A DNA stretch of 64,000 bases, taken from assembly GCA_947375135.1 (NCBI GenBank), contig CANCER010000013.1:1-64000 (forward strand), written 5' to 3'. Below are positions 14,729 through 30,943 of this stretch, one piece after another (positions within the stretch are counted from its first letter, which is position 1; each line of letters begins with the position of its first letter). The notes beneath the pieces are model-generated. The model had not been told where the DNA came from, did not search any database, and was given only the letters and a program-made list of their open reading frames with translations. The stretch is from Comamonadaceae bacterium (GTDB lineage Bacteria; Pseudomonadota; Gammaproteobacteria; Burkholderiales; Burkholderiaceae_C). Made by a program: the position numbers and the translations under genes.

Positions 14729-17656
14729 ATGACCATGTCCGACCAAGCCACTCCCAGCCCCACAACTCCCTCCCCCGCCACCAGCACGCCCGAGCAACCG
14801 GGCCTGCAATCGCTGTCCAAATCGTTTGAACCGGCTGCGCTGGAAGCGCACTGGGGCCCCGAATGGGAAAAGCGCGGCTATGGCATTGCCGGCTACCGTG
14901 GCACGCAAAACCCCCTGGCCAGCGCCGCTTCGTTTGCCATCCAGCTGCCGCCCCCGAATGTGACCGGCACGCTGCACATGGGACACGCGTTCAACCAGAC
15001 CATCATGGACAGCCTGACGCGCTACCACCGCATGTCCGGCTTCAACACCGCCTGGATTCCCGGCACCGACCACGCAGGTATTGCCACGCAAATCGTGGTG
15101 GAGCGCCAGCTCGCCGACCAGAAGGTCAGCCGCCACGACCTGGGCCGCACCGACTTTGTGAAAAAAGTCTGGGAATGGAAAGAAAAGAGTGGCAACACCA
15201 TCACCACCCAGATGCGCCGCATGGGCGACAGCGTGGACTGGAGCCGCGAGTACTTCACCATGGACCCAAAACTGTCCAAAACGGTGACCGAGACCTTTGT
15301 GCAGCTCTATGAGCAGGGCCTTATCTACCGTGGCAAGCGCCTGGTCAACTGGGACCCGGTGCTGATGAGCGCGGTGAGCGATCTGGAAGTGGAGAGCGAG
15401 GAAGAAGACGGCTCCATGTGGCACATCCGCTACCCGTTGGCCGATGGCAGCGGCGACATCACTGTCGCTACCACCCGCCCCGAGACCATGCTGGGCGACG
15501 TGGCCGTGATGGTGCACCCCGAAGACGAGCGCTACATGGCCCTGATCGGCAAAATGGTGAGGCTGCCCTTGTGCGACCGCGAGATCCCGGTCATTGCCGA
15601 CGATTACGTGGACAAGGCCTTCGGCACCGGTGTGGTCAAGGTCACGCCCGCGCACGACCAGAACGACTACGCCGTCGGCCAGCGCCATAAGCTGCCCATG
15701 ATTTGCGTGCTGACGCTGGACGCCAAGATCAACGCAAACGCCCCTGCCGCCTACCAGGGCCTGGACCGTTTTGTTGCCCGCAAGAAAGTGGTGGCCGATC
15801 TGGAAGCCGGCGGCTTCCTGGTCGAAGTGAAGAAGCACAAGCTGATGGTGCCGCGCTGCGCCCGCACCGGCCAGGTGATCGAGCCCATGCTGACCGACCA
15901 GTGGTTTGTCGCCATGAACCAGATCGGCCAGGGCGATGCCACCGGCAAATCCATCGCGCAAAAAGCGATTGATGCCGTGCAGTCCGGCGAAGTGCGCTTT
16001 GTGCCCGAGAACTGGGTCAACACCTACAACCAGTGGATGAACAACATCACCGACTGGTGCATCAGCCGCCAACTCTGGTGGGGCCACCAGATCCCGGCCT
16101 GGTACGACGAAGACGGCAATGTGATCGTCGCCCGCAACGAAGAAGAAGCCCAGGCCAAGGCCCCGGGCAAGACCCTGCGTCGCGATGAGGATGTGCTCGA
16201 CACCTGGTACTCCAGCGCGCTGGTGCCATTCAGCACCATGGGGTGGCCCGAGAAGACTGAGGACTACGACCTGTATCTGCCCAGCAGCACCCTGGTCACC
16301 GGCTACGACATCATCTTCTTCTGGGTCGCCCGGATGATCATGATGACCACGCACTTCACCGGCAAAGTACCCTTCAAACACGTCTACATCCATGGCCTGG
16401 TGCGCGACGCGCAGGGCAAGAAGATGAGCAAGTCCGAAGGCAATGTGCTCGACCCGGTGGACCTGATCGACGGCATCTCCCTGGAGCCTCTGCTCGACAA
16501 ACGCACCACCGGTCTGCGCAAGCCCGAGACAGCGCCCGCCGTGCGCAAAAACACGCAAAAGGAATTCCCAGAAGGCATTCCGGCCTATGGTGCCGATGCC
16601 CTGCGCTTCACCTTTGCCGCACTGGCGTCCCTGGGCCGCAGCATCAACTTCGACAGCAAGCGCTGCGAGGGCTACCGCAACTTCTGCAACAAGCTGTGGA
16701 ACGCCACCCGCTTTGTGCTGATGAACTGCGAAGGCCAGGACTGCGGCCTGCTGGAGCACACCAAGGAGCAATGCTCCGTGGGTGGCCCGGCCCATGGCTA
16801 CCTGCGCTTTACGGCGGCCGACCGCTGGATCGTCTCACTGCTGCAAAAGACTGAAAGCCAAGTGGCCCAGGGCTTTGAAGAGTACCGCTTGGACAACGTG
16901 GCCAACACGATTTACGACTTTGTCTGGAACGAGTTCTGCGACTGGTACCTGGAAATCGCCAAGGTGCAAATCCAGACCGGCGACGACGCGCAAAAGCGCG
17001 GCACCCGCCGCACGCTGATCCGCACACTCGAAACCATTCTGCGTCTGGCCCATCCGGTGATCCCGTTTATCTCCGAAGAGCTGTGGCAAAAAGTGGCGCC
17101 CGTGGCAGGTCGCGCGGGCCCCTCGGTCAGCATCGCAGCCTATCCCGTGAGCCAGCCTGAGCGCATTGACGAAGCGGCCATTGCACAGATCGTCAAACTC
17201 AAGCTGCTGGTGGATGCCTGCCGCAACCTGCGTGGCGAGATGAGCGTGCCGCCCAGCACCCGCCTGCCGCTGTATGTTGTGGCGCAAAACGCGGCCGAAG
17301 CCGCCTTCCTGCAAACCTCCGCGCCGATTCTGCAAGCATTGGCCAAACTCAACGAGGTCAAGCTGTTTGCCGACGAAGCCTCTTGGCAAGCTGCGGCGCA
17401 GGCCGCCCCCGTGGCCGTGGTGGGCGACGCGCGCATCTGCCTGCACATGGAAGTGGACGTAGCAGCAGAGAAGCTGCGTCTGGGCAAGGAAGTGGCGCGA
17501 CTCGAAGGCGAAATCGCCAGGGCCCATGGCAAGCTCTCCAACGAGGCTTTCGTGGCCAAGGCCCCGCCGGCCGTGATTGAGCAGGAACGCAAGCGCGTGG
17601 CGGGCTTCTCCGACACCGTGGTCAAGATGCGCGATCAGTTAGCGCGTCTGGGCTAA
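14729..17656 (+). CDS. valS: valine--tRNA ligase
   Basis: A 975-residue class I aminoacyl-tRNA synthetase. It has the HIGH signature as [11 protein letters not shown] after PPNVTG, a long CP1 editing insertion, the KMSKS signature as KKMSKSEGN, an anticodon-binding domain and a C-terminal coiled coil ([21 protein letters not shown] region) that contacts tRNA. It charges tRNA-Val and edits mischarged threonine. Two nearby ATGs (14729 and 14735) are possible starts; neither has a strong ribosome binding site. It is transcribed alone and converges on the TusA-like gene. Confidence 0.97.
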
Positions 17657-17687
17657 GTCCGGGCAGCGGTCTGTGCGACCGCTGTGT

Positions 17688-17722
17688 AAAAAAAAAGGAA
17701 GCGGGCTCTCGGGCCCGCTTCT
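17688..17722 (-). terminator. Rho-independent terminator of the tusA-like gene
   Basis: On the minus strand a 9-bp stem (GAAGCGGGC with GCCCGCTTC) is followed by a run of nine T. It lies just beyond the stop of the TusA-like gene and in the convergent gap with valS. On the plus strand the same hairpin lacks a T-run of comparable quality. Confidence 0.8.
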
Positions 17723-17727
17723 GCGTT

Positions 17728-17955
17728 TTAACGCCGGCGCAAAACGTGGATGTAATCCGTACCCAGCGTCTGCTGGTCCAGCAACTCGTTGCCGGTTTGT
17801 TTGGCAAAGGCCTGGAAATCACGCAGTGAGCCGGCATCGGTCGACACCACCTGAAGGACCTGGCCGCTTTGCAACTCCGCCAAAGCCTTTTTAGCCTTCA
17901 GTATGGGCAAGGGGCAGTTCAGGCCACGGGTGTCAATTTCTTTGTCGATCTGCAT
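17728..17955 (-). CDS. TusA/SirA-family sulfur carrier protein
   Basis: A 75-residue protein of the TusA fold. It contains the invariant CPxP motif (NCPLPILKAKKAL) with the active Cys at residue 14, preceded by DTRGL. Family members relay persulfide sulfur for tRNA 2-thiouridine or for sulfur metabolism. The start at 17955 gives the typical length; longer frames are not family-like. It lies 53 bp downstream of cysM on the same strand, which fits a sulfur-handling role. Which pathway it serves cannot be told from sequence. Confidence 0.9.
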   Translation of the reverse strand: MQIDKEIDTRGLNCPLPILKAKKALAELQSGQVLQVVSTDAGSLRDFQAFAKQTGNELLDQQTLGTDYIHVLRRR

Positions 17956-18008
17956 ATGTTTTCCTAGGTCCGTCGCATTGTAGGGTCGTGCAAGGCATGC
18001 GATGCCCT

Positions 18009-18911
18009 TCAGGCAGGGAAGACGCCGGTGGACAGGTAGCGATCGCCCCGGTCGCACACCACAAACACAATGGTGGCATCGGTTTCGCGTGCCGCAATCT
18101 GTTGCGCCACCCAGCAGGCACCGGCCGCGGAAATGCCGGCAAAAATGCCTTCCTCCCTGGCAAGGCGCCGGCACATATTTTCGGCGTCAGCTTGGCTGAC
18201 ATACACCAGTTCATCCACATTCGCCGGGTTGAAAATCTTGGGCAAATACGCTTGCGGCCACTTGCGAATGCCGGGGATGCGCGAGCCCTCGGACGGCTGC
18301 GCACCGATGATGCGGATGGCCGGATTTTTCTCTTTCAAAAACTGGGACACGCCGGTAATCGTTCCGGTGGTGCCCATGGCGCTCACAAAGTGCGTGACCC
18401 GGCCGTGGGTGTCGGCCCAGATCTCGGGGCCGGTGGTTTCGTAATGGGCGCGCGGATTATCGGCATTGGCAAACTGGTCAAGCACCACGCCCTGCCCTTC
18501 GCGCACCATCTTGTCGGCCAGGTCGCGGGCGTATTCCATGCCGCCGCTCTTGGGTGTGAGGATGAGTTCGGCACCAAAGGCCTTCATGGTCTGCACACGT
18601 TCGATCGACAAATCCTCCGGCATGATGAGGATCATGCGATAGCCCTTGATGGCGGCCGCCATGGCCAGGGCAATGCCGGTGTTGCCGGAGGTGGCCTCAA
18701 TGAGCGTGTCGCCGGGTTTGATTTCACCGCGCTCCTGTGCCCGCTGAATCATGCTGAGCGCGGGCCGGTCTTTCACCGAGCCGGCCGGATTATTTCCCTC
18801 CAGCTTGCCCAGCACCACGTTGTTGCGTTGGGCATTTTCCTGTGCGCCTATGCGCTGCAGGGCAGCCAAGGGAGTTTTTCCGATTGCGTCTTCGATGGTG
18901 GGATAGTTCAT
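18009..18911 (-). CDS. cysM: cysteine synthase B
   Basis: A 300-residue fold-type II PLP enzyme. The PLP lysine is K47 in NPAGSVKDRP. The substrate-binding loop (EATSGNTGIALA) and phosphate-binding Gly loop (SAMGTTGTITG) are present. The CysM-type start (IEDAIGKTPL) and length distinguish it from CysK. It makes cysteine from O-acetylserine and sulfide or thiosulfate. It is followed by the TusA-like gene, and tRNA-Leu is divergent 40 bp upstream. Confidence 0.95.
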   Translation of the reverse strand: MNYPTIEDAIGKTPLAALQRIGAQENAQRNNVVLGKLEGNNPAGSVKDRPALSMIQRAQERGEIKPGDTLIEATSGNTGIALAMAAAIKGYRMILIMPEDLSIERVQTMKAFGAELILTPKSGGMEYARDLADKMVREGQGVVLDQFANADNPRAHYETTGPEIWADTHGRVTHFVSAMGTTGTITGVSQFLKEKNPAIRIIGAQPSEGSRIPGIRKWPQAYLPKIFNPANVDELVYVSQADAENMCRRLAREEGIFAGISAAGACWVAQQIAARETDATIVFVVCDRGDRYLSTGVFPA

Positions 18912-18951
18912 GCCCTTAAATGTGCCATAATTTGATTAGTTTCTCATTCCA

Positions 18952-19036
18952 GCCCGGGTGGTGAAATTGGTAGACGCAGGGGACTCAAAATCCCCCGCCG
19001 CAAGGCGTGCCGGTTCGATTCCGGCCCCGGGCACCA
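18952..19036 (+). tRNA. tRNA-Leu (anticodon CAA)
   Basis: An 85-nt class II tRNA with acceptor stem GCCCGGG/CCCGGGC, discriminator A and an encoded CCA at 19034-19036. The D-arm begins TGGTGAAATTGGTAGACGC, typical of tRNA-Leu. The anticodon stem GGGGA/TCCCC encloses loop CTCAAAA, giving anticodon CAA for UUG codons. A long variable arm (GCCGCAAGGCGT) and T-arm GGTTCGATTCC follow. It sits at the junction between core genes and the mtr-type cluster. Confidence 0.97.
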
Positions 19037-19070
19037 TCTGACGATTTCAGACGGTAGCAAGTAATGTAAA

Positions 19071-19106
19071 AACCCGCAACGCCGAGCCGGCGTTGCGGGT
19101 TTTTTG
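19071..19106 (+). terminator. Rho-independent terminator after tRNA-Leu
   Basis: A strong GC-rich hairpin (ACCCGCAACGCC paired with GGCGTTGCGGGT, short loop GAGCC) is followed by T6. It is about 35 bp downstream of the tRNA 3' end and should end its transcript. Confidence 0.88.
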
Positions 19107-19110
19107 TTGT

Positions 19111-19240
19111 TTTACGCACATTTGACCTTGGCAGCAGCCTTCGTTGCCTTTGGGCAGTTCGGGTATTCCGGTCGATAGCGGACGATGTCGAAATACACGT
19201 TCAAGTATCCTTGGTCAGATGGGCTCAGAACCATGGGCCT
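19111..19240 (-). pseudogene. possible C-terminal relic of an unidentified gene
   Basis: The minus strand reads as an open frame ending in stop 19112-19114, with a coding-like sequence (YLNVYFDIVRYRPEYPNCPK) and a Lys/Ala-rich tail KATKAAAKVKCA. A Met at 19234 could start a 40-residue ORF, but there is no clear ribosome binding site. The frame loses coherence at about 19240, exactly where a plus-strand IS66-like coding remnant begins. I read it as the tail of a gene cut by an insertion; the protein is not recognised. Confidence 0.35.
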
Positions 19241-19322
19241 ATTGAGGGACGTGCTGGCAGTACTGCCTGCTCACATGAACAGCCGCATTGACGAACTGCG
19301 ACCCCTCCGCTGGCAATCCTGA
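19239..19322 (+). mobile_element. IS66-family transposase C-terminal remnant
   Basis: The plus-strand frame ending TGA at 19320-19322 encodes LLRDVLAVLPAHMNSRIDEL then RPLRWQS. This matches the conserved IS66 TnpC tail (consensus about YLRDVL..LP.HPNSRIDELLPHRW). No upstream transposase sequence or accessory tnpA/tnpB remains in this window. It marks a past insertion and deletion between tRNA-Leu and the electron-transfer cluster. Confidence 0.6.
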
Positions 19323-19373
19323 TGCGGAATCGGCTAGGGTCAAGGTGGAGAGCCAAGTCGCTTTTGGCGCGGC

Positions 19374-19406
19374 TAAAAAAACCCGGCCACCTTTACAGGT
19401 GCCGGG
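19374..19406 (-). terminator. Rho-independent terminator of the mtr-type operon
   Basis: On the minus strand, CCCGGCACCT and AGGTGGCCGGG pair with one bulged base around a TGTAA-type loop. They are followed by seven T. It is 24 bp after the mtrB stop and should end the operon transcript. Confidence 0.85.
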
Positions 19407-19429
19407 CCAGGAAAGTTTATCCTTGTTAC

Positions 19430-21802
19430 TTAAAATTTCCGGACATAAGAAACACCGACAAAGGTGACGGACTGGTTGGGGTTACTGACGGTTGTATTGT
19501 CAGAATATACAAACGGTACACCGTTGTATGACCACTGCCAATCATCGGACTTCAACTCTTGATAAGCCATATTGACCTTCACCGACGACTTCTTGTCCAA
19601 GTCATACACACCGTACAGGTTCAGCTTAACCGAGTTGTACGTAATGGTCGGCAGATAGTTCCCACCCGGACTTCTCGTACCGTTATATCCGCCAATATTT
19701 CCGGCCAGATTTGCGTTGGTAAGCGTTCCTTGTGCTGCCAGACCTGCAACAGTTGGAGCAACAAAATTCTGCAAAGTAGTTACGTCGTCGGCTGCTAATA
19801 CATCGAAGCCAACCAAGAAGCCAGGAGATACCTTGCCTTTTACGGACAAACCAAATGTGTTCGTCAAATTCTTGGTGTCATCGCCAAGTCCACTCTTATT
19901 GACACTCCAACGACTTTCACTGTGAGTCCAGTAACCGCCGATTTGCCAAACTTCTGACACCTTGTAACTGGCATCCAAAGTTACCGAATCATTGGAGACT
20001 GTTCGGGCACCCGGTTGTATCGCAATCACTTGCGTAGTCACCGGTGTCCATGCTCTTTTGTAGTCATCCTGAGCGTGCTCCAGCACTGCTTGCACCGAAA
20101 GGTTTTCGCTAGGATCCCAGTCCATATTTGCACGTAACTTCGTCCTGTCACGATCCATATACATATCGGGCAACACATAAGCACCATCGGCAGCCTTGAC
20201 AACAACCGTATTACCCTTCGCGTTGTCTCCGCTTTTCCAATCATCCCCGCTACGACGCACCTTGTACTCCATGCTTAACGCACCACTGAGGTCTTCGGCC
20301 ATGGCCTTTCGGAAACCCAAATGCAGGCCACTCTCATCCGTAGTCTCGCGAACTAACAGACCACCTGTTCCATAAATCGCCGTGTTATTAGGTAACACGG
20401 GATTCTTTTTACGTTCCCACTCAGCACCAGCAAGTACTGAGTAACCTGCTGCTAACCGATAGGTAGCATCAAACTTGGCGTCAGTACGTTGTTGCGAACC
20501 TGATGCCCAGTTGTTTGTGGCATCCAAGGCAGCACCGGTCTTACCGTAGTTATAAACACGCACTGCGGTCATGTCATTACGGTCTTCATAGCGCAGGCTG
20601 GCATTGACCGAGAGATCTTTCACCGGCCGCATGGCCAAGCCGAACTGCAGAAGAGTCGTGTCGAGCGCACCGCCCAAGCTTGCAGGGGCTGTAATGGATG
20701 GCGACAAACCTATTCCGGCAAAGCCTTCATCCTGGGTGGCATGGGTATAAGACAACTTGAAGTTGGTGCGCGTGGTGTCCGAATACGCATAGGTGCCACT
20801 GAAGTACAACTGGTGCGCTTGATTATCTGCAGGTAGTGCGACCGCAGATGATGCAATCTGCTGAATCGTACATGCACCAGTCAAATTAGCACATCCAAGC
20901 AGAGTTGCGCCACCATCCCACAATGCACCACGGTTGAGTGTACCCGGCACGACAGGTGTGAGACTGCCCATATTATTGGTATAGAAAGAGCCGTAATAGC
21001 CACCAGTAACAGCTAATTTGTCATGGCTGAAATTTAACTTGGTGTCGATCGTACGGATGTTCGAATCAATCGGTTCCGGTGTCAGCAAAAGTGCCACGTT
21101 GCCGCCAAGAGCACCTGCACCTTGTGTGGGGCTGTAAATCATGTCACTGGAAGTGATGCCCACGCGACCAAACATGCGTGCACCCTTCTTGTCTTCGTTC
21201 CGGAAATTGACTTCCAGTTGCAGACCAGGTGATATCCACTTGTCACCACCGATGCCAAGGGCCGTACGCTTGAGCTTCAAATTCTCATCATGGCCAGCAA
21301 CTCCATTGCTGGCGGCTAATCCTGTTGCTGCAGCATATCCGGCAGGCATAGCTGGCGTCTTGATCAGATTGATAACTGGGCTGGAAGTCCCAATTCCGGT
21401 CATACCGGTATTAATGACATAAGGATCGTTACGAACAATCTCGTTGTAATCAACACCAAACTTCCAGTCGCCCTGCACTTGACGGGAGAAATTCAAGTCC
21501 CTTGTGTCCAGACCTAAATTACGGCCTGAAATATTGGTCCACGTGCCAGTCGCGTCGTCGCGCGTGACCGACTCGAAGTCAAGTAAGACGGCGCCGTCTT
21601 TGTTCAGGCCGGTGTATTGGCCAAAGCGCCTGGCATTGCTTTCGCCACTGATAGCGCCGGCACCGACCGATACCGAACTCCCATTAGGCGAGATCAGCGC
21701 TTGCACCTCCTCCGTTTGCTGGGCGTACGAGTTTCCGAACGCCACCAAAAGTGCAGCGGCAAGTGGAGCCAGTTTCAATTCAAAAAAGTGATTCTTAGAC
21801 AT
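19430..21802 (-). CDS. mtrB: MtrB/PioB-family outer-membrane beta-barrel of a porin-cytochrome conduit
   Basis: A 790-residue protein with a Sec signal peptide (cleavage about SYA-QQ, residue 27) and alternating amphipathic strands throughout. It ends in the aromatic YVRKF typical of outer-membrane barrels. Size and strand pattern fit the MtrB/MtoB/PioB barrel that sheathes decaheme MtrA so that electrons cross the outer membrane. The N-terminal CxxC of Shewanella MtrB is absent; the only Cys pair lies in an internal loop (LLGCANLTGAC). It has AGGAG 6 bases before its start and begins 12 bp after mtrA, so the two are coupled. Base composition is visibly lower in GC than flanking core genes, consistent with acquisition. 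Symbol by homology type, not proven orthology. Confidence 0.88.
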   Translation of the reverse strand: MSKNHFFELKLAPLAAALLVAFGNSYAQQTEEVQALISPNGSSVSVGAGAISGESNARRFGQYTGLNKDGAVLLDFESVTRDDATGTWTNISGRNLGLDTRDLNFSRQVQGDWKFGVDYNEIVRNDPYVINTGMTGIGTSSPVINLIKTPAMPAGYAAATGLAASNGVAGHDENLKLKRTALGIGGDKWISPGLQLEVNFRNEDKKGARMFGRVGITSSDMIYSPTQGAGALGGNVALLLTPEPIDSNIRTIDTKLNFSHDKLAVTGGYYGSFYTNNMGSLTPVVPGTLNRGALWDGGATLLGCANLTGACTIQQIASSAVALPADNQAHQLYFSGTYAYSDTTRTNFKLSYTHATQDEGFAGIGLSPSITAPASLGGALDTTLLQFGLAMRPVKDLSVNASLRYEDRNDMTAVRVYNYGKTGAALDATNNWASGSQQRTDAKFDATYRLAAGYSVLAGAEWERKKNPVLPNNTAIYGTGGLLVRETTDESGLHLGFRKAMAEDLSGALSMEYKVRRSGDDWKSGDNAKGNTVVVKAADGAYVLPDMYMDRDRTKLRANMDWDPSENLSVQAVLEHAQDDYKRAWTPVTTQVIAIQPGARTVSNDSVTLDASYKVSEVWQIGGYWTHSESRWSVNKSGLGDDTKNLTNTFGLSVKGKVSPGFLVGFDVLAADDVTTLQNFVAPTVAGLAAQGTLTNANLAGNIGGYNGTRSPGGNYLPTITYNSVKLNLYGVYDLDKKSSVKVNMAYQELKSDDWQWSYNGVPFVYSDNTTVSNPNQSVTFVGVSYVRKF

Positions 21803-21814
21803 GTTCTGCTCCTA

Positions 21815-22786
21815 TTAACGCAAGAAGAAGGCTGGTGGCAGAAGGTTCTGACCGCCATTGGGGTTGTTGCTGCCGTGAATTTCGGTGTGGCAGTTCAAGC
21901 ATCCACGTGCCTGTTCGATGTAGGTATTGGCTTTACCAATCGTTGTGGCAGCAGGCGCGATACCAGCAACACCAGGTGTTCCGTGACCGCTGTGGCATTG
22001 GTAGCACACCATAGGTGGGCGAGCCTTCAACAGATTGTCGGCAGTTGCACCGTGTGGCTGGTGGCAATTACTGCAATCATCAGTTACAGGCCGATGGTTG
22101 TGCACGAACGGGCCGCGCTTTTCCATGTGGCAGGTGTAGCAGGTTTCAACTACGCTATCGCGTTTCATCAGCTTGGGGCCAGCAGAGCCGTGGGCATTGT
22201 GGCAATCCGAGCAGGACACTTTGCCTTCAGGTGTCGGGTGGTGAGACTGCTTATTGAACTGTGCGCGCTGCTCTTTGTGGCATGCGTAGCAGACTTCAGG
22301 CTGGGTGCGTTTGTCACGCACCTTGTCATGGGCTGCATGCACTTCGTGGCAGGATGTGCAAGACACATCTGCTGCTTCGTGTGCGCTACCAACCCACAAG
22401 TGACGCTTGGAGTCATTCTGGTGGCATGTGGTGCAAGCCACATTTTTCTCAGCCGCAGTGTTCTTGCTCTTCTTGCCAAAAGTGCGATCCGGAGCTGGCG
22501 GCTTGGCGCTGCCCTTGTAGCCGATGTGTGCGGCACTGTCGCCGTGGCAGCTGGTACAGCTTGGGGTACGTCCGTCAGCACGGGTGCCATGCTTGGTTTT
22601 ACCGATTGCCAGGACTCCAGGGGAGTCGGACTCGTCGTGGCAGGCGGTGCACTTGGCATCGCCGTTCAGCACCAGGTCTTTGGGTGCATCGGCAGCATAT
22701 GCCGCCCCACCCAGCAACGCCGTTCCCAGCGTGACGCATTGCAATGCACGCACGATCACTTGCTTGATTCTTGATAATTTTGTCAT
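21815..22786 (-). CDS. mtrA: periplasmic decaheme c-type cytochrome, MtrA/MtoA/PioA/DmsE family
   Basis: About 323 residues with a signal peptide (cleavage near AYA-AD) and exactly ten CxxCH heme motifs, the first at C47 and the last ending at His301 (numbered from an ATG one codon upstream). The number of hemes and the length match MtrA-family decahemes, which form a linear heme wire inserted in the MtrB barrel. Two adjacent ATG codons occur (22789 and 22786). The second is preferred because AGAGG then lies at 6-base spacing. It is followed by mtrB after 12 bp and preceded by the nine-heme/cytochrome b gene. Direction of electron flow (Fe(II) oxidation or Fe(III)/electrode reduction) cannot be read from the sequence. 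Confidence 0.93.
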   Translation of the reverse strand: MTKLSRIKQVIVRALQCVTLGTALLGGAAYAADAPKDLVLNGDAKCTACHDESDSPGVLAIGKTKHGTRADGRTPSCTSCHGDSAAHIGYKGSAKPPAPDRTFGKKSKNTAAEKNVACTTCHQNDSKRHLWVGSAHEAADVSCTSCHEVHAAHDKVRDKRTQPEVCYACHKEQRAQFNKQSHHPTPEGKVSCSDCHNAHGSAGPKLMKRDSVVETCYTCHMEKRGPFVHNHRPVTDDCSNCHQPHGATADNLLKARPPMVCYQCHSGHGTPGVAGIAPAATTIGKANTYIEQARGCLNCHTEIHGSNNPNGGQNLLPPAFFLR

Positions 22787-22837
22787 CATTTACCTCTGTT
22801 CTTTCAATTGAACAACTTACTCTTTATCGAACTCTCT

Positions 22838-24847
22838 TTAGCCCACATGCAGGCTGGTCACAAACCCGTTGACGACCAGCACCAACAAAGTCAAACCAGC
22901 AGCAATCAGTACCAGGCCCAGGATCTTGGATCGACGGGTCATGGGTTGTGATGGACCATCCACCAGCAACTTCTCCAGTTCACCCGAGTCCAGCAGGCGC
23001 TGGTATTGGGCCGGGTGGTCTGCGCGGAACTCTTCCAGGGACTGCAGGCCGGTGAACATGACGATGTCAGGCGGTGGCAGCTTGTCCGGGCGGAAGTGGT
23101 TGTTGAAGAAGTGCACGGTGAACAGGAACACTGCCGCAAGGAAGGCCTCTTCGCCGTGCACCACGGTTGCGATGTTGAAGATCCAGCCTGGCAGGAACTT
23201 GGCCGTGATGGTCGGGAAGGCCAGCATGATGCCGCTGCTACCAATGATGGACACACCCCAGAACACGGCCCAGTAGTCGAACTTCTCAAAGTAGGTCCAG
23301 CGCTCAAAGCGGGGCTTGGGGCCCATGCCCAGGAACCACTTGAACATACCGATGCAATCAGCCAGATCTTTCCAGTTGGGGATCAGCGAGTTGGGGCCGA
23401 ACCAGCGGAAGGTCTTGTCGCGCAGCAGGCTTTGCATCACATACACAAAGTGGATGGCAAAGATGCCGATGAACAGAGACGCTGCCACCCGGTGGATGAT
23501 GGCCAGGCCATGGGTGCCACCCAGCATGGACGCCACCACAGGTGCCCACTTGGTCTGCGAGAACAGCGCCGAGGTTCCCGTCAACACCAGGGTCATGGTG
23601 ATCAGGGCGAAGGCCAGGTGGGCAATGCGCCAGCCCACCGGGAAGCGTTGGAAGAATTTCTGTTCCTGGACGATGCCGTCAGTGCGTACATGCGGCACGG
23701 CGACGTGTGACTTGCGGTCCTGCCATTCGCGGTAGTACCACAGGCCGGAGTGTGCCCAGAAGAAGGCAAACACCAGAATCAGCAGGCCTTGCATGAACTT
23801 GGTGACGATCCACATTTGCGGGTACTTGGCAAAGTCGTGTGCGTTGGCGTGGGGCCCAAAGCTCACAAAGCCTTCGGTGGCCAGCTCACGCTTTTTGCCG
23901 TCATGGCAAGCCTGGCAAGTCTTGAGGCGGTTGGCCACATTGATCTTGGACTTGGGGTCGCTGGCGGGCAGGATGTCATGGCTACCGTGGCAGTTGTAGC
24001 ACTTGGCCGTGTCCGCACCGCCGAGCTTGTTGGCCTGACCGTGGTAGGTGTCGCGATACGAAGCCAGGTTGTCCTTGTGGCAGCTGCCGCACTCTTCCGT
24101 CACCAGCAGCTTGAAGCTGTTGAGCGAGGTGTTGGTGATCTCGTGCGTGGTGTGGCAGTTGATGCACACCGGGGCTTTGTCGTTCTTCTTGTCCAGCAAT
24201 TCGGTGCCGTGGATCGACGCGGAATAGGTCTCCAGTTGGTCGTCGTGGCAGCTGCCGCACAGTTGCGGCACATCACGACGCCATTCTGCATATTGCGCGC
24301 TCTTCTTGTCAGCGGGCACATTGAAGGCATGGGTGTCATGGCACTGGGTGCAACTGGCCTTGGGCAAGGACGGTGTGTCTTTGTCCGGCTGCGCGTGGAA
24401 TGACTTCTTATAAGCCTCTATGTTTTTAGCGACCGTTTCCAAGCGCGGCTTGTCTCCAGCAGCGCCTGCCTTCTTGGCCTCTTCCCAGAGCCCTTCATGG
24501 CAGCTTGCGCAGTCAGGCGACTTGGCAGTGCTTCTTTGGTGGGGAGCGGCGCTGTCCACGATGTCGGTATGGCAAGCCACGCACTGCATCTTGGCATGCA
24601 CGCTCTTGCCAAACTTGTCGTTGCTGACGCCCTTGACGGTGTGCTTGTCGCCACCGATGCCAGGCATTTCAATCTTGCCTTTTTTGCTGTCGTGGCAAGT
24701 CAGGCAAGTCGCGTTGTCGAGCTTGGGTTCAGGTGCAGTGACCTTTGCAGCACTGCTGCCGGCTGCAAAAGCCGGCAACGCCGTCAGCACCCCGGACAGA
24801 CTGATGAGGGATGCCAGGATCCAGAGTAGTAAACGACTTTTATGCAT
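22838..24847 (-). CDS. nine-heme cytochrome c fused to b-type membrane cytochrome (CbcL-like quinone oxidoreductase)
   Basis: A 669-residue protein with a signal peptide (to about residue 28). A periplasmic domain to about residue 330 carries nine CxxCH motifs. The C-terminal half has about six transmembrane helices including candidate b-heme His residues (WRIAHLAF, IIHRVAAS, FAIHFVYV, FTVHFFNNH). This domain order and heme count resemble CbcL of Geobacter, an inner-membrane quinol:cytochrome c oxidoreductase used for low-potential Fe(III) reduction. It would take the place of CymA in linking the quinone pool to MtrA. It lies between the monoheme cytochrome and mtrA genes on one strand with short gaps and no terminators. 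Orthology to CbcL is inferred from architecture. Confidence 0.85.
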   Translation of the reverse strand: MHKSRLLLWILASLISLSGVLTALPAFAAGSSAAKVTAPEPKLDNATCLTCHDSKKGKIEMPGIGGDKHTVKGVSNDKFGKSVHAKMQCVACHTDIVDSAAPHQRSTAKSPDCASCHEGLWEEAKKAGAAGDKPRLETVAKNIEAYKKSFHAQPDKDTPSLPKASCTQCHDTHAFNVPADKKSAQYAEWRRDVPQLCGSCHDDQLETYSASIHGTELLDKKNDKAPVCINCHTTHEITNTSLNSFKLLVTEECGSCHKDNLASYRDTYHGQANKLGGADTAKCYNCHGSHDILPASDPKSKINVANRLKTCQACHDGKKRELATEGFVSFGPHANAHDFAKYPQMWIVTKFMQGLLILVFAFFWAHSGLWYYREWQDRKSHVAVPHVRTDGIVQEQKFFQRFPVGWRIAHLAFALITMTLVLTGTSALFSQTKWAPVVASMLGGTHGLAIIHRVAASLFIGIFAIHFVYVMQSLLRDKTFRWFGPNSLIPNWKDLADCIGMFKWFLGMGPKPRFERWTYFEKFDYWAVFWGVSIIGSSGIMLAFPTITAKFLPGWIFNIATVVHGEEAFLAAVFLFTVHFFNNHFRPDKLPPPDIVMFTGLQSLEEFRADHPAQYQRLLDSGELEKLLVDGPSQPMTRRSKILGLVLIAAGLTLLVLVVNGFVTSLHVG

Positions 24848-24906
24848 GTTGTTGAACTTTTGTTACCAAGCTAGGCAGTTAAACCAAAGGTGTTTTGCTG
24901 CAAGAA

Positions 24907-25275
24907 CTATTGCGACAGAATCCACTGGGCCAGGTTCTTCAGCGCCTTGGCGTCTTTGGTATCAATGATCTTGTGGTCTTCTTCGGTGCCGTCTTCGAGC
25001 TTGACCTTGTTGCCGCTGGTGATGTTGTGGATGATTTTTTCTTCACCCTCAGCTTTGCCCTTGTATTTGGCGGCTACCTTTTTGTAGGAAGGGCCTTTCT
25101 TGGTCTTGTCGATGGCGTGGCATTTGAAGCAATCGTTCTTCTTTGCCAAAGCCATGGCGCCGTCTGCGTCGATGTCTGCAGCCATCGCAGAGCCGGACAG
25201 ACCCAGGAATGCGGCCATGGCCAGGGGAGCCAAGATGGCGGATAGTTTGAATGAGGTAGGAGCAGTGAAGGTCAT
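24907..25275 (-). CDS. periplasmic monoheme class I-like cytochrome c without a Met ligand
   Basis: A 122-residue protein with a signal peptide (cleavage at AMA-AD, about residue 33), one CFKCH motif and a C-terminal helix ending AQWILSQ, as in c5/c551-type cytochromes. There is no Met anywhere after the heme motif. Where family members have the axial Met loop, this one has DGTEEDHKII, so His (from DHK, or from IIHN) probably ligates the heme. That would lower its potential. The start at 25275 is chosen for GGAAAG about 8 bases upstream; a longer frame begins at 25296. It is the first gene of the cluster and is probably the periplasmic shuttle between the nine-heme quinone oxidoreductase and MtrA. 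Confidence 0.85.
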   Translation of the reverse strand: MTFTAPTSFKLSAILAPLAMAAFLGLSGSAMAADIDADGAMALAKKNDCFKCHAIDKTKKGPSYKKVAAKYKGKAEGEEKIIHNITSGNKVKLEDGTEEDHKIIDTKDAKALKNLAQWILSQ

Positions 25276-25541
25276 GAGCAGGTCTTTCCGAAGCAAGCTT
25301 CCAGATAGGGTTTACGGATATTTACAGTTGGGACATTGTCGCGACGGGAAATGCCGAAACTCATAGGAACGCGCCGAATCTGACCATAGGAAAATTCCTA
25401 TTCAAACTCGGGCATTGCCTCAATTCATAAACATTGATCTGCGACAAGTCCCTGAAACGGGAGGTCGCGTAGGCTTGCTGTTTCGCTTGCCAATTTCCTG
25501 CAGCCATTGCGGCGCGCAGGACGACATGCAACCCTGGCGGG
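25276..25541. other. upstream control region of the mtr-type cluster
   Basis: A 266-bp gap between the response regulator stop and the monoheme cytochrome start, both on the minus strand. It holds a perfect 7-2-7 inverted repeat (25386-25401), a second ATAGGAA half-site at 25363-25369 and no credible gene. I see no obvious terminator for the regulator gene and no clear sigma-70 hexamers at consensus. Confidence 0.5.
25386..25401. promoter_or_regulatory. 7-2-7 palindrome, candidate NarL-type response regulator site
   Basis: ATAGGAA-AA-TTCCTAT is a perfect inverted repeat of two 7-base arms with a 2-base spacer, the geometry of NarL-family dimer sites. A third ATAGGAA lies 23 bp closer to the gene (25363-25369). 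The palindrome is about 110 bp upstream of the first gene of the cytochrome operon and directly downstream of a NarL-family regulator gene. That this regulator binds here is inference. Confidence 0.55.
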
Positions 25542-26180
25542 CTACAGGTCGGTTAAGTTCTGATCGATCGCGTAGCGGACCAAATCCACCTGTGTCGACA
25601 TATTCATCTTGGCGAGGATGTGGGTTTTGTGTGTGCTGACCGTTTTCACACTCAGGGATAATTCTTCGGCGATGGCCGTCAACGCTTCGCCGCGCACGAT
25701 GTGGCGGAACACCTCAAACTCACGATCGGTCAGCAGCGTGTGGGGCAGGTTCTGGCTGTGCGGGGATATATCACCCGCTAGCAGTTCAGCCACCTTGGGG
25801 CTGATGTACATGCCGCCTGCAGCCACCCGGCGCATGGCCGGTAGCAGCAGGTCGGTGTCGCCTTCCTTGGAGATATAGCCCGAGGCGCCCGCCCGGATGG
25901 CGCGCACAGCGTATTGCTCTTCCGGGTGCATGCTGAATATCAGAATGGGCAGTTTGGGCCGCTCGGCCTTGACCAGCTTGACCAGCTCCAGCCCGTTGCG
26001 CCCCGGCATGGAGATGTCCAGCACCAGCAAATCCCAGTCTCTGGCGCGCACCTGCTCCATCACTGCGATGCCGTTAGCGGCTTCACCGGCAACTACCAGG
26101 TCGTAGGTGTCGGCCAGGATTTTGCGCAAGCCGTCACGAATAATGGCGTGGTCGTCCGCAATCAATACGTCTGCCGTCAT
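25542..26180 (-). CDS. NarL/FixJ-family response regulator
   Basis: A 212-residue regulator. The receiver domain has the acidic pocket DD (residues 9-10), phosphoacceptor D55 (LVLDISMPG) and K105 (GYISKEG). A C-terminal LuxR-type helix-turn-helix (about 145-205, LTDREFEVFRHIVRGEALTAIA region) follows. It overlaps the upstream histidine kinase gene by four bases (ATGA), so they form a cognate pair. The next gene cluster on the same strand, 266 bp downstream, encodes the cytochrome conduit, and a 7-2-7 palindrome sits in between. It is the natural candidate to control that cluster, though the signal is not identifiable from sequence. Confidence 0.92.
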   Translation of the reverse strand: MTADVLIADDHAIIRDGLRKILADTYDLVVAGEAANGIAVMEQVRARDWDLLVLDISMPGRNGLELVKLVKAERPKLPILIFSMHPEEQYAVRAIRAGASGYISKEGDTDLLLPAMRRVAAGGMYISPKVAELLAGDISPHSQNLPHTLLTDREFEVFRHIVRGEALTAIAEELSLSVKTVSTHKTHILAKMNMSTQVDLVRYAIDQNLTDL

Positions 26181-28201
26181 GTCTGCACCTCGTTGGCTGC
26201 AATGTCTTTCATGGGTACGGTTACCTCTACGCGTGTTCCAACGCCGATATGGCTGCTGACAGAAAACGAAGCGCCAATCGCCCCGCAGCGTTCGCGCATG
26301 CTGACCAGCCCGACGCCACCCACAGTGCCCTCGCGATCAAAGCCGCGACCGTTGTCGCTGATCAGCAGAAGCAATTGCTCGTCTGCGTAGTGCAGGCAGA
26401 CCAGTACCTTGCTGGCTTGCGCATGGCGCACCACGTTGGTCAGGGCTTCCTGCACGATGCGAAACAGTGCGGTGGCCAGGCCGTCTTCCGTCACCCGATT
26501 GGCCGCTTGCAAGTCCAGTTCAATCTGAATGCCGCTGTGTTTGAAAAACTCCTGGGTCTGCCAGGTGAGCGCCTCACGGAAGTCCACATCATCCAGCACG
26601 CGCGGGCGCAATTCCGCAGCGATGCGGCGCACCGAGCCAATCGCCGCATCCATTTGGTGGCGCATCTCGTCCACATCCGAGACGGCCGTCGGTTTGCCTT
26701 CCTTCAGCCGGCTGCCCAACCACGACAGGCTCAGCTTGAGGCCGGTGAGGCGCTGACCCAGGTCGTCGTGCAACTCGCGGGAGAAGCGCTTGCGCTCCTC
26801 TTCGCGCACGTTTTGCAGGCTGGCGGATAACTCGCGCAGTTGGGTGTTGACGGTGCGCAGGGCGGACTCGGTCTTGCGGCGTTCGGTCACATCGCGCAGC
26901 ACCGCCGTCATCTGCATCTTGCCGCCGATCAGGGAATGCGAAATGGTGGACTCCAGCGGGAACTCAATGCCGTTGGAGCGCAAGCCGAAAATCTCCAGCT
27001 GCGGCGCCATGGAGCGCGATACGGTCTCGCTGGCAGAAAAACCCTCCATATGCTGGTGGTGAACGGCACGCAGCCGCTCGGGCATCAGGATTTCCAGCGG
27101 CTGGCCTAGGGCCTGCGCTGCGTTCAGACCAAACATGGCTTCAGCCGACGGGTTGAACATGATGATGTGCCTGTGTTCGTCCACCGCAACAATCGCATCC
27201 ATGACCGAATTGACGGTGTGCTGGTAGCGCTCGTCGGCAGCACTCAAGGCCATGGAAAGTACCCTCTTGCCCTGCAGCTTGCTCACCAGGTAAGTGGCCA
27301 TCAGGGCCGTGAAGATACACACCAGCACCGCACCCAAGGCAATCGGAATGGCCGTGTCGCGCCAGGAGGCCAGGCTGAGGTTTTCCACGTCCGTCACGCT
27401 GATCAACAAAGGGAAGCTGGAGAGCTTGCCGATCGCAATCGATTCCCTGCCGGTACGCTCGTTGGTCTGGTTGATCACCCGGATTTGCTGGGACTTGGTG
27501 GGCAGGGTCCCGCTTTGCAGTTCCGGAACCTGCGCCCCGATCAGGGTATCGCGGTGCGGCAGGCTGGCTACCAGCGTGCCATCCATCATGTAGATACCAA
27601 TCGGGCGCGGGTAGTCGATTTGCACGGTGCTGAGCGTGCGTTCAAAGTCATCGATATGGATTGCGGCCACCACGATGCCACGCCACTGGCCGCCCGCCCC
27701 CTTGAGCTTGCGCGCCAGTGTCAACGTCCAGGTGTTGTCGATGCGGCTGCGCACCGGCTTGGCCAGGTACATGAAGTCCGGCCGCCCCTGCGCAAATGCT
27801 TTGAAGTAATCCCGATCCGCCACAGAAAAGGGCAGCCCGGTGATGTCGCGAGAGGAGTTAACCACCAAGCCGTTGACATCGACCACAAAGAGCGCGCTCA
27901 GTTGCTTGAGTCCGGAAACCCGGGAGCTGAGCAATAAACGCACAGGGTCACTGTCCAGGGGCAGTTTGACGCCAAACGGTGTGAGCAACCGCTCTTGAAC
28001 GCTCTGCATCAGCAGGTCGGTGCTTTCCAGGTTTTTCTCGGTCTGCTCCATCAGCATGCGCGTGAGGCTGATGGTCTCCAGATGGGCATGGTTGAGCTCG
28101 CGGTCGCGCAGGCCCCACAGCAGAAAGCCGACCGAGAAAATGATGGCGACGATGGTCAGCAAAGCCAGCAATCCCACGTACCTGACGGGTTTGAATTCCA
28201 T
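26177..28201 (-). CDS. membrane sensor histidine kinase with Cache and PAS domains
   Basis: About 674 residues. TM1 is at residues 8-30. An extracytoplasmic dCache-like domain follows (DRDYFKAF motif, DNTWTLTLARKL strand), then TM2 at roughly 283-305. A cytoplasmic PAS domain (VNSVMDAIVAVDEHRHIIMFN) leads to a HisKA_3 dimerisation helix with phosphoacceptor His in RELHDDLGQ, and a HATPase domain with N box (QEALTNVVRHA) and G boxes (DNGRGFD, GVGLVSMRER). This is the NarX/UhpB-type kinase class that pairs with NarL regulators. The start at 28201 (MEFKPVRY) directly precedes TM1; the frame is open further upstream but would overlap tlpA. Cache domains usually bind small extracellular ligands, so a periplasmic signal is likely; the PAS domain could add a redox or heme input. 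Confidence 0.9.
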   Translation of the reverse strand: MEFKPVRYVGLLALLTIVAIIFSVGFLLWGLRDRELNHAHLETISLTRMLMEQTEKNLESTDLLMQSVQERLLTPFGVKLPLDSDPVRLLLSSRVSGLKQLSALFVVDVNGLVVNSSRDITGLPFSVADRDYFKAFAQGRPDFMYLAKPVRSRIDNTWTLTLARKLKGAGGQWRGIVVAAIHIDDFERTLSTVQIDYPRPIGIYMMDGTLVASLPHRDTLIGAQVPELQSGTLPTKSQQIRVINQTNERTGRESIAIGKLSSFPLLISVTDVENLSLASWRDTAIPIALGAVLVCIFTALMATYLVSKLQGKRVLSMALSAADERYQHTVNSVMDAIVAVDEHRHIIMFNPSAEAMFGLNAAQALGQPLEILMPERLRAVHHQHMEGFSASETVSRSMAPQLEIFGLRSNGIEFPLESTISHSLIGGKMQMTAVLRDVTERRKTESALRTVNTQLRELSASLQNVREEERKRFSRELHDDLGQRLTGLKLSLSWLGSRLKEGKPTAVSDVDEMRHQMDAAIGSVRRIAAELRPRVLDDVDFREALTWQTQEFFKHSGIQIELDLQAANRVTEDGLATALFRIVQEALTNVVRHAQASKVLVCLHYADEQLLLLISDNGRGFDREGTVGGVGLVSMRERCGAIGASFSVSSHIGVGTRVEVTVPMKDIAANEVQT

Positions 28202-28218
28202 GCGTAGTTGCGGGGCCG

Positions 28219-28746
28219 TTATTTCTTGTTGCGCAGCGTGGCGTCGATCCACTGGGCTGCTTCTGCATTGTCCCACTCCCTGGCGCCGTAATAGCGTGCC
28301 AACACCCGCCCCTGGGCATCCACCAGCAAGGTTAACGGAAGGCGCTCGGCGCCCAGCATGTTCTCCAGTTCCAGCGCACGGTCCCTGTAGTGGTTGATCG
28401 TGGCATTGGCGCTTTGCAGATAGCGCTTGGCGGCAGCCTCGCTGTCGTCGGTGGAGATGCCAATCAGGTTGAAGCGCTTGCCCTGGTCTTTCCAGGCCAG
28501 GCGCTCCAGCGAACCCATCTCGGCGCGGCAGGGGCCGCACCAGCTTGCCCACACATTGATGAGCAAGGGCTTGCCGCGGTAATGCGAGAGCAGCCGGTCC
28601 GGGCCGTTGAGTCCGTGCATCGTGGCCTCGCGCAGCGGGGCGCCCACGGCTACCTCACCGGGTGTCTTGGCCAGGGCATTGCCGCAAAACTGCAGTGCAC
28701 ACAGGCCCAGCCAGGCCGCAACCACCCGCAAACGTGTATTTTTCAT
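28219..28746 (-). CDS. TlpA-family periplasmic thioredoxin-like protein
   Basis: A 175-residue protein with a signal peptide (to about residue 26, NALA-KT) and a thioredoxin fold with active site WASWCGPC (C70, C73). A cis-Pro motif follows (RLPLTLLVDAQG). TlpA/ResA-type proteins reduce apocytochrome CxxCH cysteines before heme attachment, or act as general periplasmic thiol reductases. It lies 17 bp upstream of the kinase gene on the same strand and 3.5 kb from a locus encoding twenty CxxCH motifs, so a role in cytochrome maturation is plausible. Confidence 0.88.
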   Translation of the reverse strand: MKNTRLRVVAAWLGLCALQFCGNALAKTPGEVAVGAPLREATMHGLNGPDRLLSHYRGKPLLINVWASWCGPCRAEMGSLERLAWKDQGKRFNLIGISTDDSEAAAKRYLQSANATINHYRDRALELENMLGAERLPLTLLVDAQGRVLARYYGAREWDNAEAAQWIDATLRNKK

Positions 28747-28798
28747 AAGGCTTGAACATAGCAGAAGCGGCGCGCGCCAAATTCGCCGCCCATAAGCA

Positions 28799-28829
28799 AA
28801 AAGCCCTGGAGCAGAACGCCAGGGCTTTT
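28799..28829 (-). terminator. Rho-independent terminator between scoAB and tlpA
   Basis: An 11-bp perfect stem, AAAAGCCCTGG and CCAGGGCTTTT, with a 9-base loop. On the minus strand the hairpin ends in TTTTT... scoB ends 29 bp upstream, so it terminates the CoA-transferase operon. The A/T-flanked stem could also act on the plus strand, but no gene reads into it from that side. Confidence 0.8.
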
Positions 28830-28857
28830 GGTCATCTCAGCAAACCAGGGAGCGCTG

Positions 28858-29496
28858 TCAGATCAGCGTCACACCCGTTTTGCTTTGCAGCAGTTCCAGC
28901 GTCACGCCGGGTGCCATCTCCACCACTTTCAGGCCTTCGGGCGTGACGTCCATCACGGCCAGGTCGGTGATGATGCGGTCCACCACGCCCACGCCAGTCA
29001 GAGGCAGGGTGCAATGCGGCAATATCTTCAAGTCTTCCGTGCCGTCTTTCTTCTTGGCCACGTGCTCCATCAGGATGATCACGCGCTTGACACCCGCCAC
29101 CAGGTCCATCGCGCCGCCCATGCCCTTGACCATCTTGCCGGGGATCATCCAGTTGGCCAGATCGCCCTTCTCGCTCACCTGCATGGCGCCCAGGATGGAC
29201 AAATTGATCTTGCCGCCGCGGATCATGGCGAAGCTGTCGTGGCTGCCAAAAATACTGGAGCCCTTGATGGTGGTGACGGTCTGCTTGCCGGCGTTGATCA
29301 GATCGGCGTCCACCTCGTCTTCGTACGGAAAGGGGCCGATGCCCAGCATGCCGTTCTCGCTTTGCAGCCAGACTTCCACATGGTCGGGCACAAAGTTGGC
29401 CACCAGGGTCGGGATGCCGATTCCGAGGTTTACATAGAAACCGTCTTGCAGTTCGGAGGCCGCACGGGCGGCCATTTGGTCTTGGGTCCAGGGCAT
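28858..29496 (-). CDS. scoB: 3-oxoacid CoA-transferase subunit B
   Basis: A 212-residue class I CoA-transferase beta subunit. Signatures are the N-terminal [12 protein letters not shown] and catalytic Glu47 in QSENGMLG, followed by ITDLAV and a C-terminal LELLQSKTG. With subunit A it transfers CoA from succinyl-CoA to acetoacetate, or to 3-oxoadipate in the related Pca enzymes. The start at 29496 (MPWTQDQ) is the family start; upstream frame is noise. It lies 10 bp after scoA. Substrate choice (acetoacetate or 3-oxoadipate) is not certain. Confidence 0.92.
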
Positions 29497-29506
29497 ATCG
29501 TTCTCC

Positions 29507-30214
29507 TCAAACTTTGCGTGCGCGGGTGGTGCGCTTTTCGATGCGCTTTTCGGGGGTCGGGTTGACCACAATGCGGTGCACATAGATGCCCGCCAGGTGC
29601 ACGTCGTCCGGTGCAATCTCACCGGTGGCGACGATACGCTCCACTTCCACCACGCAAATTTTTCCGGCCATGGCCACAGCGGGGTTGAAGTTGCGTGCGG
29701 TCAGGTTAAAGCGCAGGTTGCCCGACATGTCGGCCACATCGGCCTTGACCAGGGACACCTCCGGCAGCAGCGCGCGCTCCATCACATAGGTCTCGCCGTC
29801 AAAGTCGCGCAGTTCCTTGCCCTCGGCCACCAGCGTGCCCACACCGGTCTTGGTGAAGAAGGCGGGGATGCCGGCACCACCGGCACGCAGTTTCTCGGCC
29901 AGCGTGCCCTGGGGTGTGAACTCCAGTTCCAGTTCGCCCGCCAGGTACTGGCGCTCGAACTCCTTGTTCTCGCCCACATAGGAAGACACCATCTTCCTGA
30001 TCTGGCGCGTATCGAGCAGTTTGCCCAGGCCGAAGCCGTCCACGCCGGCGTTGTTGGCGATGACGGTCAGGTCTTTCACGCCGCTATCGCGCAGCGCGTC
30101 GATCAGCGCCTCGGGAATGCCGCACAGACCAAAACCGCCGACTGCCAGTGTCTGGCCATCGCGGACGATGCCTTCAAGCGCCGCCGCGGCGCTGGGATAT
30201 ACCTTGTTCACCAC
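29507..30214 (-). CDS. scoA: 3-oxoacid CoA-transferase subunit A
   Basis: A 235-residue class I CoA-transferase alpha subunit with the glycine-rich CoA loop [14 protein letters not shown], an IANNAG segment and a C-terminal [12 protein letters not shown]. It is the first gene of a two-gene operon ending at the hairpin 28799-28829. It is divergent from a PAS-LuxR regulator, with an inverted-repeat operator in the 108-bp gap. In many betaproteobacteria the pair serves ketone-body or PHB-derived acetoacetate use. Confidence 0.92.
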
Positions 30215-30247
30215 ACGTTTCTCCTGTATTGACTGTGCACATACGAT

Positions 30248-30269
30248 ACTACGTAATCACATACGTAGT
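30248..30269. promoter_or_regulatory. inverted-repeat operator ACTACGTA-N6-TACGTAGT
   Basis: A perfect 8-6-8 inverted repeat centred between the divergent scoA and PAS-LuxR starts. A further half-site, TTTCGTAGTG, follows directly (30271-30280), and CATACGAT precedes it. The symmetry and place fit a LuxR-type dimer site that controls scoAB and perhaps the regulator itself. Binding is inferred. Confidence 0.65.
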
Positions 30270-30322
30270 GTTTCGTAGTGTCCAACCCTTGGTTTGCTTC
30301 AACGCCCTTGAGAAACTGCCCC

Positions 30323-30877: not shown

Positions 30878-30943
30878 GCCCTGCAGCAATAGCCCCCCGC
30901 GCCAGTCCGGGCCGGTGAAGAAGTTAAGCTTCGCACCTTTGAA

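Follow-up and report, generated by a model that had tools for sequence, protein, structure and literature searches.

The closest described relatives of the system discussed here are the mtoABCD gene sets, which encode a decaheme MtoA, an outer-membrane barrel MtoB, a nonaheme MtoC and a monoheme MtoD (PMC5566968, PMC6295460). The operon of D. aromatica was given the name mtoABCD (PMC5566968), mtoC accompanies mtoA, mtoB and mtoD in both D. aromatica and G. capsiferriformans, and the survey in PMC6295460 describes seven species in which mtrH/mtoC is clustered with mtrAB/mtoAB. We analyzed a locus of the same composition in a Comamonadaceae bacterium, located in a 64,000-nucleotide stretch of contig CANCER010000013.1 (the window; contig C13 of the assembly). 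The genes mtoD, mtoC, mtrA and mtrB are arranged head to tail on the minus strand, from position 25275 down to 19430. The locus belongs to the published Mto conduit type. What is new is an apparent swap of the outer half: relative to a congener (genome G313), mtrA and mtrB appear to have been exchanged for a pair without a surface cytochrome, with the inner half nearly unchanged. The features that matter for this argument are the following.

19430..21802, minus strand: mtrB/mtoB, outer-membrane barrel of the MtrB/PioB family (790 amino acids; PF11854, TIGR03509)
21815..22789, minus strand: mtrA/mtoA, decaheme cytochrome (324 amino acids; ten CxxCH; TIGR03508)
22782..22818, minus strand: 37-nucleotide run in the mtoC-mtrA leader, shared without mismatch by congener G331; the leader is a different one in G313, G317 and G389
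22838..24847, minus strand: mtoC, CbcL/MtrH/MtoC type (669 amino acids; nine CxxCH behind a signal peptide, then a b-type cytochrome part at the C-terminal end)
22951..24150, minus strand: 3' part of mtoC with 94-100% DNA identity to G313 (150-base steps), ending near the homology break
24907..25275, minus strand: mtoD, monoheme cytochrome c (122 amino acids; best PDB match 4xxl_A)

Membership in the Mto type is supported first by an MtrA-family decaheme adjoining an MtrB/PioB-family barrel, both above curated cut-offs, and further by the MtoC/CbcL-type nine-heme protein and the MtoD cytochrome. MtrA scores 274.1 bits with TIGR03508 (cut-off 192.2), and MtrB scores 337.1 bits with PF11854 (cut-off 23) and 280.9 bits with TIGR03509 (cut-off 240.05); in view of these family-model scores, chance is not a realistic explanation. 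The barrel ends in a C-terminal phenylalanine and contains no CXXC motif. MtrA also matches PDB chain 6r2q_A (E value 2.2e-64), an entry whose listed molecule name is unrelated and which we take to be the MtrCAB structure. CxxCH motifs number one in the monoheme cytochrome, nine in MtoC and ten in MtrA, which makes 20. The four minus-strand genes and the 20 c-hemes of a preliminary description of this DNA are thereby confirmed, as is its reading of a complete MtrAB conduit joined to a quinone module of the CbcL kind. The intergenic gaps, in transcription order, are only 59, 48 and 12 nucleotides, and the four genes therefore likely form one operon. Promoter and terminator scans of the region found sites no more common than in shuffled sequences (hairpins 10 versus 9.9).

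In the b-type part of MtoC, histidines 410, 452, 564, 579 and 584 are invariant across 50 aligned homologues. A six-helix membrane part has been described for MtoC homologues (PMC6295460), and six helices had been predicted here too. The nine CxxCH and the conserved histidines agree with a nine-heme protein of the MtoC/CbcL type that has a b-type membrane part. The helix count is partly supported, since a hydropathy scan detected five membrane stretches besides a signal peptide, with a sixth near residues 563-580 below threshold. Searches of PDB sequences returned no match for MtoC as a single sequence, and nothing beyond weak heme-motif matches when a profile was used. The formate dehydrogenase gamma model matched weakly to an MtoC paralogue on contig C2 (34.5 bits, cut-off 115.85), not to the window MtoC. 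The PDB match of MtoD (E value 1.4e-33) is to an entry listed as the crystallized MtoD of Sideroxydans (PMC4412085). No methionine follows CxxCH in the window MtoD; judged from the alignment, a histidine in EEDHK is a candidate for the second ligand of a bis-His heme. A loose histidine pattern is present in 94 of 98 MtoD-like frames, but 61 also have a methionine in range. The mtoD gene starts with ATG at 25275 or, by the open reading frame listing, with TTG at 25296, so that the coding part ends short of position 25401, to which it had been extended.

The wider gene order is histidine kinase, response regulator, mtoD, mtoC, mtrA, mtrB. In comparison with G313, which belongs to the same genus, protein identity is 89.7% for the kinase, 97.6% for the regulator, 96.7% for MtoD and 97.3% for MtoC, and past mtoC it drops to 64.3% for MtrA and 39.8% for MtrB. 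DNA identity, taken in 150-base steps, is 80-95% from 29850 to 24301 and 92-100% within mtoC from 24300 to 22951 (94-100% from 24150); it is 83% in the step that contains the mtoC/mtrA junction, and 24-79% from 22800 on. In G313, mtrB is followed by a gene for a 1050-amino-acid protein that scores 406.7 bits with the OmcA/MtrC model (cut-off 209.3). G317 likewise has an OmcA/MtrC-family gene (388.1 bits, same cut-off), and in G389 an MtrC-like reading frame is cut by the contig end. G331 has the gene order of the window, and no MtrC in its 19-kb stretch.

The trees agree with this division. For MtoC, the window and G313 form a pair (support 100/100), within a clade that joins them with G389, G317 and G331 (100/100), the inner order being partly open. 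On this tree, the presence of MtrC requires at least three changes over eight labelled rows. For MtrA, the window protein is sister to that of a Gallionella metagenome-assembled genome (L089, support 99), and for MtrB it pairs with the protein of the same genome (100). Grouping of the window with G313 is rejected in both cases (p of the approximately unbiased test 1.2e-50 for MtrA; p 5.4e-8 for MtrB), the p values being descriptive, as the tested groups were chosen after the identities had been seen. As far as sequence comparison goes, mtrA and mtrB have different nearest relatives from mtoC. The nearest MtrA of all is a metagenome protein, 96% identical, on a contig of 1322 bases. When window positions 17000-25300 were searched against 103 genomes of the genus, with two candidates scored per genome, the window's own match was the only one among the matches listed to cover mtrB, which is a weak indication. 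A direct BLASTN comparison with four congener loci (L232, L233, L234 and L236) gave no mtrB match either.

The GC content at third codon positions (GC3) of mtrB is 0.52, the lowest of 34 long open reading frames in the window (median 0.78; some of these frames are probably spurious), which would fit a foreign origin, but the mtrAB genes of congeners also have low GC3 values, 0.66-0.79. The near-identity of part of mtoC may not be so special, because another mtrAB region of the genome, on contig C44, is 96.4% identical between the two genomes, versus 88-92% in its flanks.

The near-identical 1.2 kb in mtoC is also the kind of shared stretch in which assemblers can cross, and the difference from G313 could then reflect an assembly chimera of two strains and not biology. 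We consider this improbable. G331, a separate assembly, aligns in one piece across the mtoC-mtrA junction (window 21991-24722, 80.7%) and shares with the window the identical run of 37 nucleotides there, versus 15 nucleotides shared with G313. Both flanks fit a single species, as valS-cysM-tRNA on the mtrB side are 90.4% identical to G313, and the other side is 80-95% identical.

On the tentative side, at somewhat short of even chances, the locus may be regarded as a socket. Kinase, regulator, mtoD and mtoC would stay in place, and mtrAB sets with and without MtrC would be swapped where mtoC meets mtrA. Species that are otherwise alike would thereby differ in whether their conduit has a surface cytochrome, and perhaps in the direction of electron flow that it prefers. 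The inner-membrane module varies as well, since the locus of congener G338 (L287, G338:C19) consists of kinase, regulator, mtoD, mtrA and mtrB, without mtoC.

The surroundings of the four genes are as follows.

18952..19036, plus strand: tRNA-Leu(CAA), left edge of the locus
19068..19104, plus strand: terminator-like hairpin of 17 pairs, in the interval that separates tRNA-Leu from the mtrB end
25542..26180, minus strand: LuxR-type response regulator (PF00072 and PF00196)
26177..28201, minus strand: sensor histidine kinase; domains dCache, PAS, HisKA_3 and HATPase (start codon ATG, 28199-28201, as the G313 homologue also indicates)
28219..28746, minus strand: TlpA/ResA-like thioredoxin by family match, which by neighbour comparison also adjoins the kinase in G313

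Upstream, past the TlpA-like gene, there are two CoA-transferase genes; tRNA-Leu, cysM and valS lie on the downstream side. In three of five congeners examined, the tRNA-Leu(CAA) is followed by a mobile element gene: G331 and G338 have a phage-type integrase there, and G365 has an IS66 transposase (L283, L289, L288). No integrase or transposase was noticed after it among the frames listed for G313 and G317, which were not subjected to a family search. Direct repeats of the tRNA of at least 18 nucleotides, as expected of island borders, were absent from 18800-31000. In this genus the tRNA gene resembles a site where islands insert, and the left border of the locus may stem from island traffic.

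The response regulator likely controls the operon. Homologues of the kinases or regulators of the window and of a second conduit on contig C21 were sought at loci with at least 3.3 kb of upstream sequence (more than 200 bits, same strand, within 3.8 kb upstream). Among 40 mtoD-mtrA loci, 14 have one, compared with 2 of 42 mtoD-mtoC loci without mtrA within 3 kb. The 14 loci are not independent, since seven of them, the window included, belong to one genus; among the remaining ones are Dechloromonas hankyongensis, Aromatoleum, Azoarcus and Pseudothauera. Some Mto loci, but not all, are thus linked to a kinase and regulator. In the collection of papers searched, none joins mtoA, mtoB, a histidine kinase and a response regulator, and the terms "two-component" and "sensor histidine" are absent from the main text of PMC8805035. 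In G317, a nine-CxxCH cytochrome of 476 amino acids is encoded between the regulator gene and mtoD, in the reverse orientation (L233:2518-3948), and above cut-off it matches general heme domains only; similar frames occur in L081 and L155.

Compared by description with the published mtoABCD sets, the window locus has the same four components. It differs in the adjoining kinase and regulator, and in the different nearest relatives of mtrAB and mtoC. The mtr cluster of Rhodoferax ferrireducens likewise combines a CbcL-type MtrH with MtrA and MtrB, and it additionally contains two cymA genes and mtrC, none of which is found at the window locus (PMC6295460). CbcL of Geobacter sulfurreducens resembles MtoC in its nine c-hemes and b-type membrane part, at a published identity to MtoC/MtrH proteins of 35.4-35.7% (PMC6295460). 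Geobacter uses Pcc porin-cytochrome complexes, unlike the window locus. The Mto pathway of Sideroxydans lithotrophicus ES-1 shares homologues of MtoA, MtoB and MtoD, and its inner-membrane cytochrome is the tetraheme ImoA/CymA instead of MtoC (PMC13390432, PMC5566968). PioAB of Rhodopseudomonas palustris TIE-1 is likewise an MtrA/MtrB-type pair, used for electron uptake (PMC8805035), and is described as handing electrons to the iron-sulfur protein PioC (PMC5566968).

We regard it as moderately probable that the locus encodes an Mto-type reversible trans-envelope conduit that is used here mainly for electron uptake from an extracellular donor, be it Fe(II), a mineral or an electrode. MtrA, lodged in the MtrB barrel, would act as a wire of hemes. 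Electrons would cross the outer membrane and hop via periplasmic monoheme cytochromes to MtoC, whose nine c-hemes and b-hemes would receive them and which would exchange electrons with quinone. Such a chain would be reversible in principle, with uptake likelier in this genome. Direction, localization, electron path and control by the two-component system are what we infer from the gene content.

Uptake is favoured because RuBisCO and oxidases are encoded in the genome, and menD and MtrC are not found above cut-off. The assembly comprises 4.22 Mb in 89 contigs and is 89.9% complete and 3.5% contaminated. The RuBisCO large subunit is form I-type, with CbbX and fructose-bisphosphatase nearby; PRK04208 together with CbbX presumably marks form I. 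Subunit I is encoded for both an aa3 (CtaD) and a cbb3 (CcoN) oxidase. The menD model has three matches, the best with 65.8 bits against a cut-off of 244.2, and missing menaquinone genes have also been reported for the iron oxidizer ES-1 (PMC13390432). No OmcA/MtrC surface decaheme lies next to mtrAB, and none scores above cut-off in the genome: two weak TIGR03507 matches fall on MtoC, and the six matches to PF22113 are accounted for by the genome's two MtoC proteins together with the C21 MtrA. This agrees with the preliminary description, which had noted neither MtrC/OmcA nor CymA at the locus and had proposed the genome-wide search; with a genome 89.9% complete, absence of MtrC/OmcA is not proven. 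No NapC/NirT tetraheme of the CymA kind was found either, as the sole PF03264 match in the genome lies inside the MtrA of C44. A candidate CymA on that contig was rejected, since the match is the decaheme MtrA itself. Finally, MtrA and MtrB are sister to Gallionella proteins, which speaks for uptake.

Several points weigh against this reading. MtoA/PioA and MtoB/PioB form no function-specific clade (PMC8805035), and the link to Gallionella is therefore no proof of oxidation. The close relatives with an MtrC-family gene would fit reduction, and the presence of mtoD-mtoC beside NrfA-like proteins at other loci suggests quinol oxidation there. In ES-1, MtoD interacts with neither MtoA nor ImoA, but PmcA does (PMC13390432), which makes a shuttle role of MtoD doubtful; it may serve another branch, for example an oxidase. 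Rhodoferax sp. MIZ03 both oxidizes and reduces iron and carries mtrABC and foxEY (PMC8552755). The window presumably stems from Rhodoferax or a near relative, and either direction is therefore plausible in such bacteria. The conduit could thus work outward, with MtoC oxidizing quinol and MtrAB reducing Fe(III), humics or an electrode through an unlinked or missed surface cytochrome. This would be in line with the Fe(III) reducer Rhodoferax ferrireducens, where mtrH, the mtoC homologue, is clustered with mtrABC and cymA (PMC6295460), with the OmcA/MtrC-family genes behind the same mtoC type in G313 and G317 and the MtrC-like frame in G389, and with the NrfA-like neighbours elsewhere. In a genome with RuBisCO and oxygen reductases, and with neither OmcA/MtrC nor menD above cut-off, we consider outward operation rather unlikely.

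It is very improbable that the locus is an extracellular reductase system of the DmsEF type. The NCBIfam label of the MtrA family, "DmsE family", might suggest so, but the same model also takes the MtrA proteins of C21 and C44 above cut-off, so the label is an umbrella. A Pfam scan of 22 window proteins, including the direct neighbours on both sides, detected no molybdopterin oxidoreductase, and hence no linked dimethyl sulfoxide reductase-type molybdoenzyme of a DmsEFAB system, within the scope of these 22 proteins. When plasmids were searched for MtrA, a single distant record from Photobacterium came up; it carries no annotation and so gives no DmsE reference.

The genome contains three MtrAB loci, in the window and on C21 and C44, and a further mtoD-mtoC pair on C2. 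At the C21 locus (L026:3528-12405), a cytochrome b561 (PF01292) takes the place of MtoC and is followed by MtoD (89% identical to the window MtoD), MtrA and MtrB; a second b561 copy and a kinase/regulator are also present. Cytochrome b561 occurs at three of 80 fetched MtrA loci (L026, L113, L239). The C44 locus (L027:6485-10290) encodes MtrA and an MtrB-like barrel of about 940-950 amino acids that stays below the TIGR03509 cut-off (181.7 bits). No inner-membrane cytochrome was recognized beside this pair, and similar pairs occur in congeners (L244-L247). The mtoD-mtoC pair on C2 (L025:6832-9385) has no MtrAB within its 19-kb stretch.

The combination of a CbcL-like protein with MtrAB had been considered an unusual mix. 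In view of the published mtoABCD sets this cannot be upheld. A survey of 300 genomes from the order gave MtoC matches in 18 and TIGR03509 matches in 30 (26 above cut-off); judged by position, 10 of the 18 genomes with MtoC have it no more than 10 kb from an MtrB match. Among the 80 fetched MtrA loci, counted after six duplicate contigs had been dropped, 35 have MtrA, MtrB and MtoC together; MtrA and MtoC are on the same strand within 6 kb in 33 of these, and 27 lack MtrC within the stretch. The MtrC calls relied on BLAST with a single MtrC sequence and at least six CxxCH, so that divergent MtrC may be missed. Of 97 fetched MtoC loci, 38 contain MtrA or MtrB. The fetched loci were not drawn at random (those with names are the 80 best among 573 MtoC relatives), and the stretches are often cut by contig ends. 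Many mtoD-mtoC pairs have no MtrA or MtrB in the stretch, including one in a two-contig genome without a TIGR03509 match (G243, L092), and some lie beside NrfA-like or PdsA-like cytochromes. At L156, L188, L190 and L192 the neighbours are proteins with seven CxxCH, and PF02335 (cytochrome c nitrite reductase) matched in the two that were scanned, L156 and L192. MtoC may therefore feed periplasmic reductases at such loci.

Whether MtrC gives the MtrAB core its reductive capacity is discussed by Baker et al. (PMC8805035). Congeners that are alike in regulators and inner module, but differ in mtrAB and MtrC, constitute a natural test pair for the role of MtrC. The adjoining sensor kinase, in turn, offers a handle on what such bacteria sense when they switch the conduit on.

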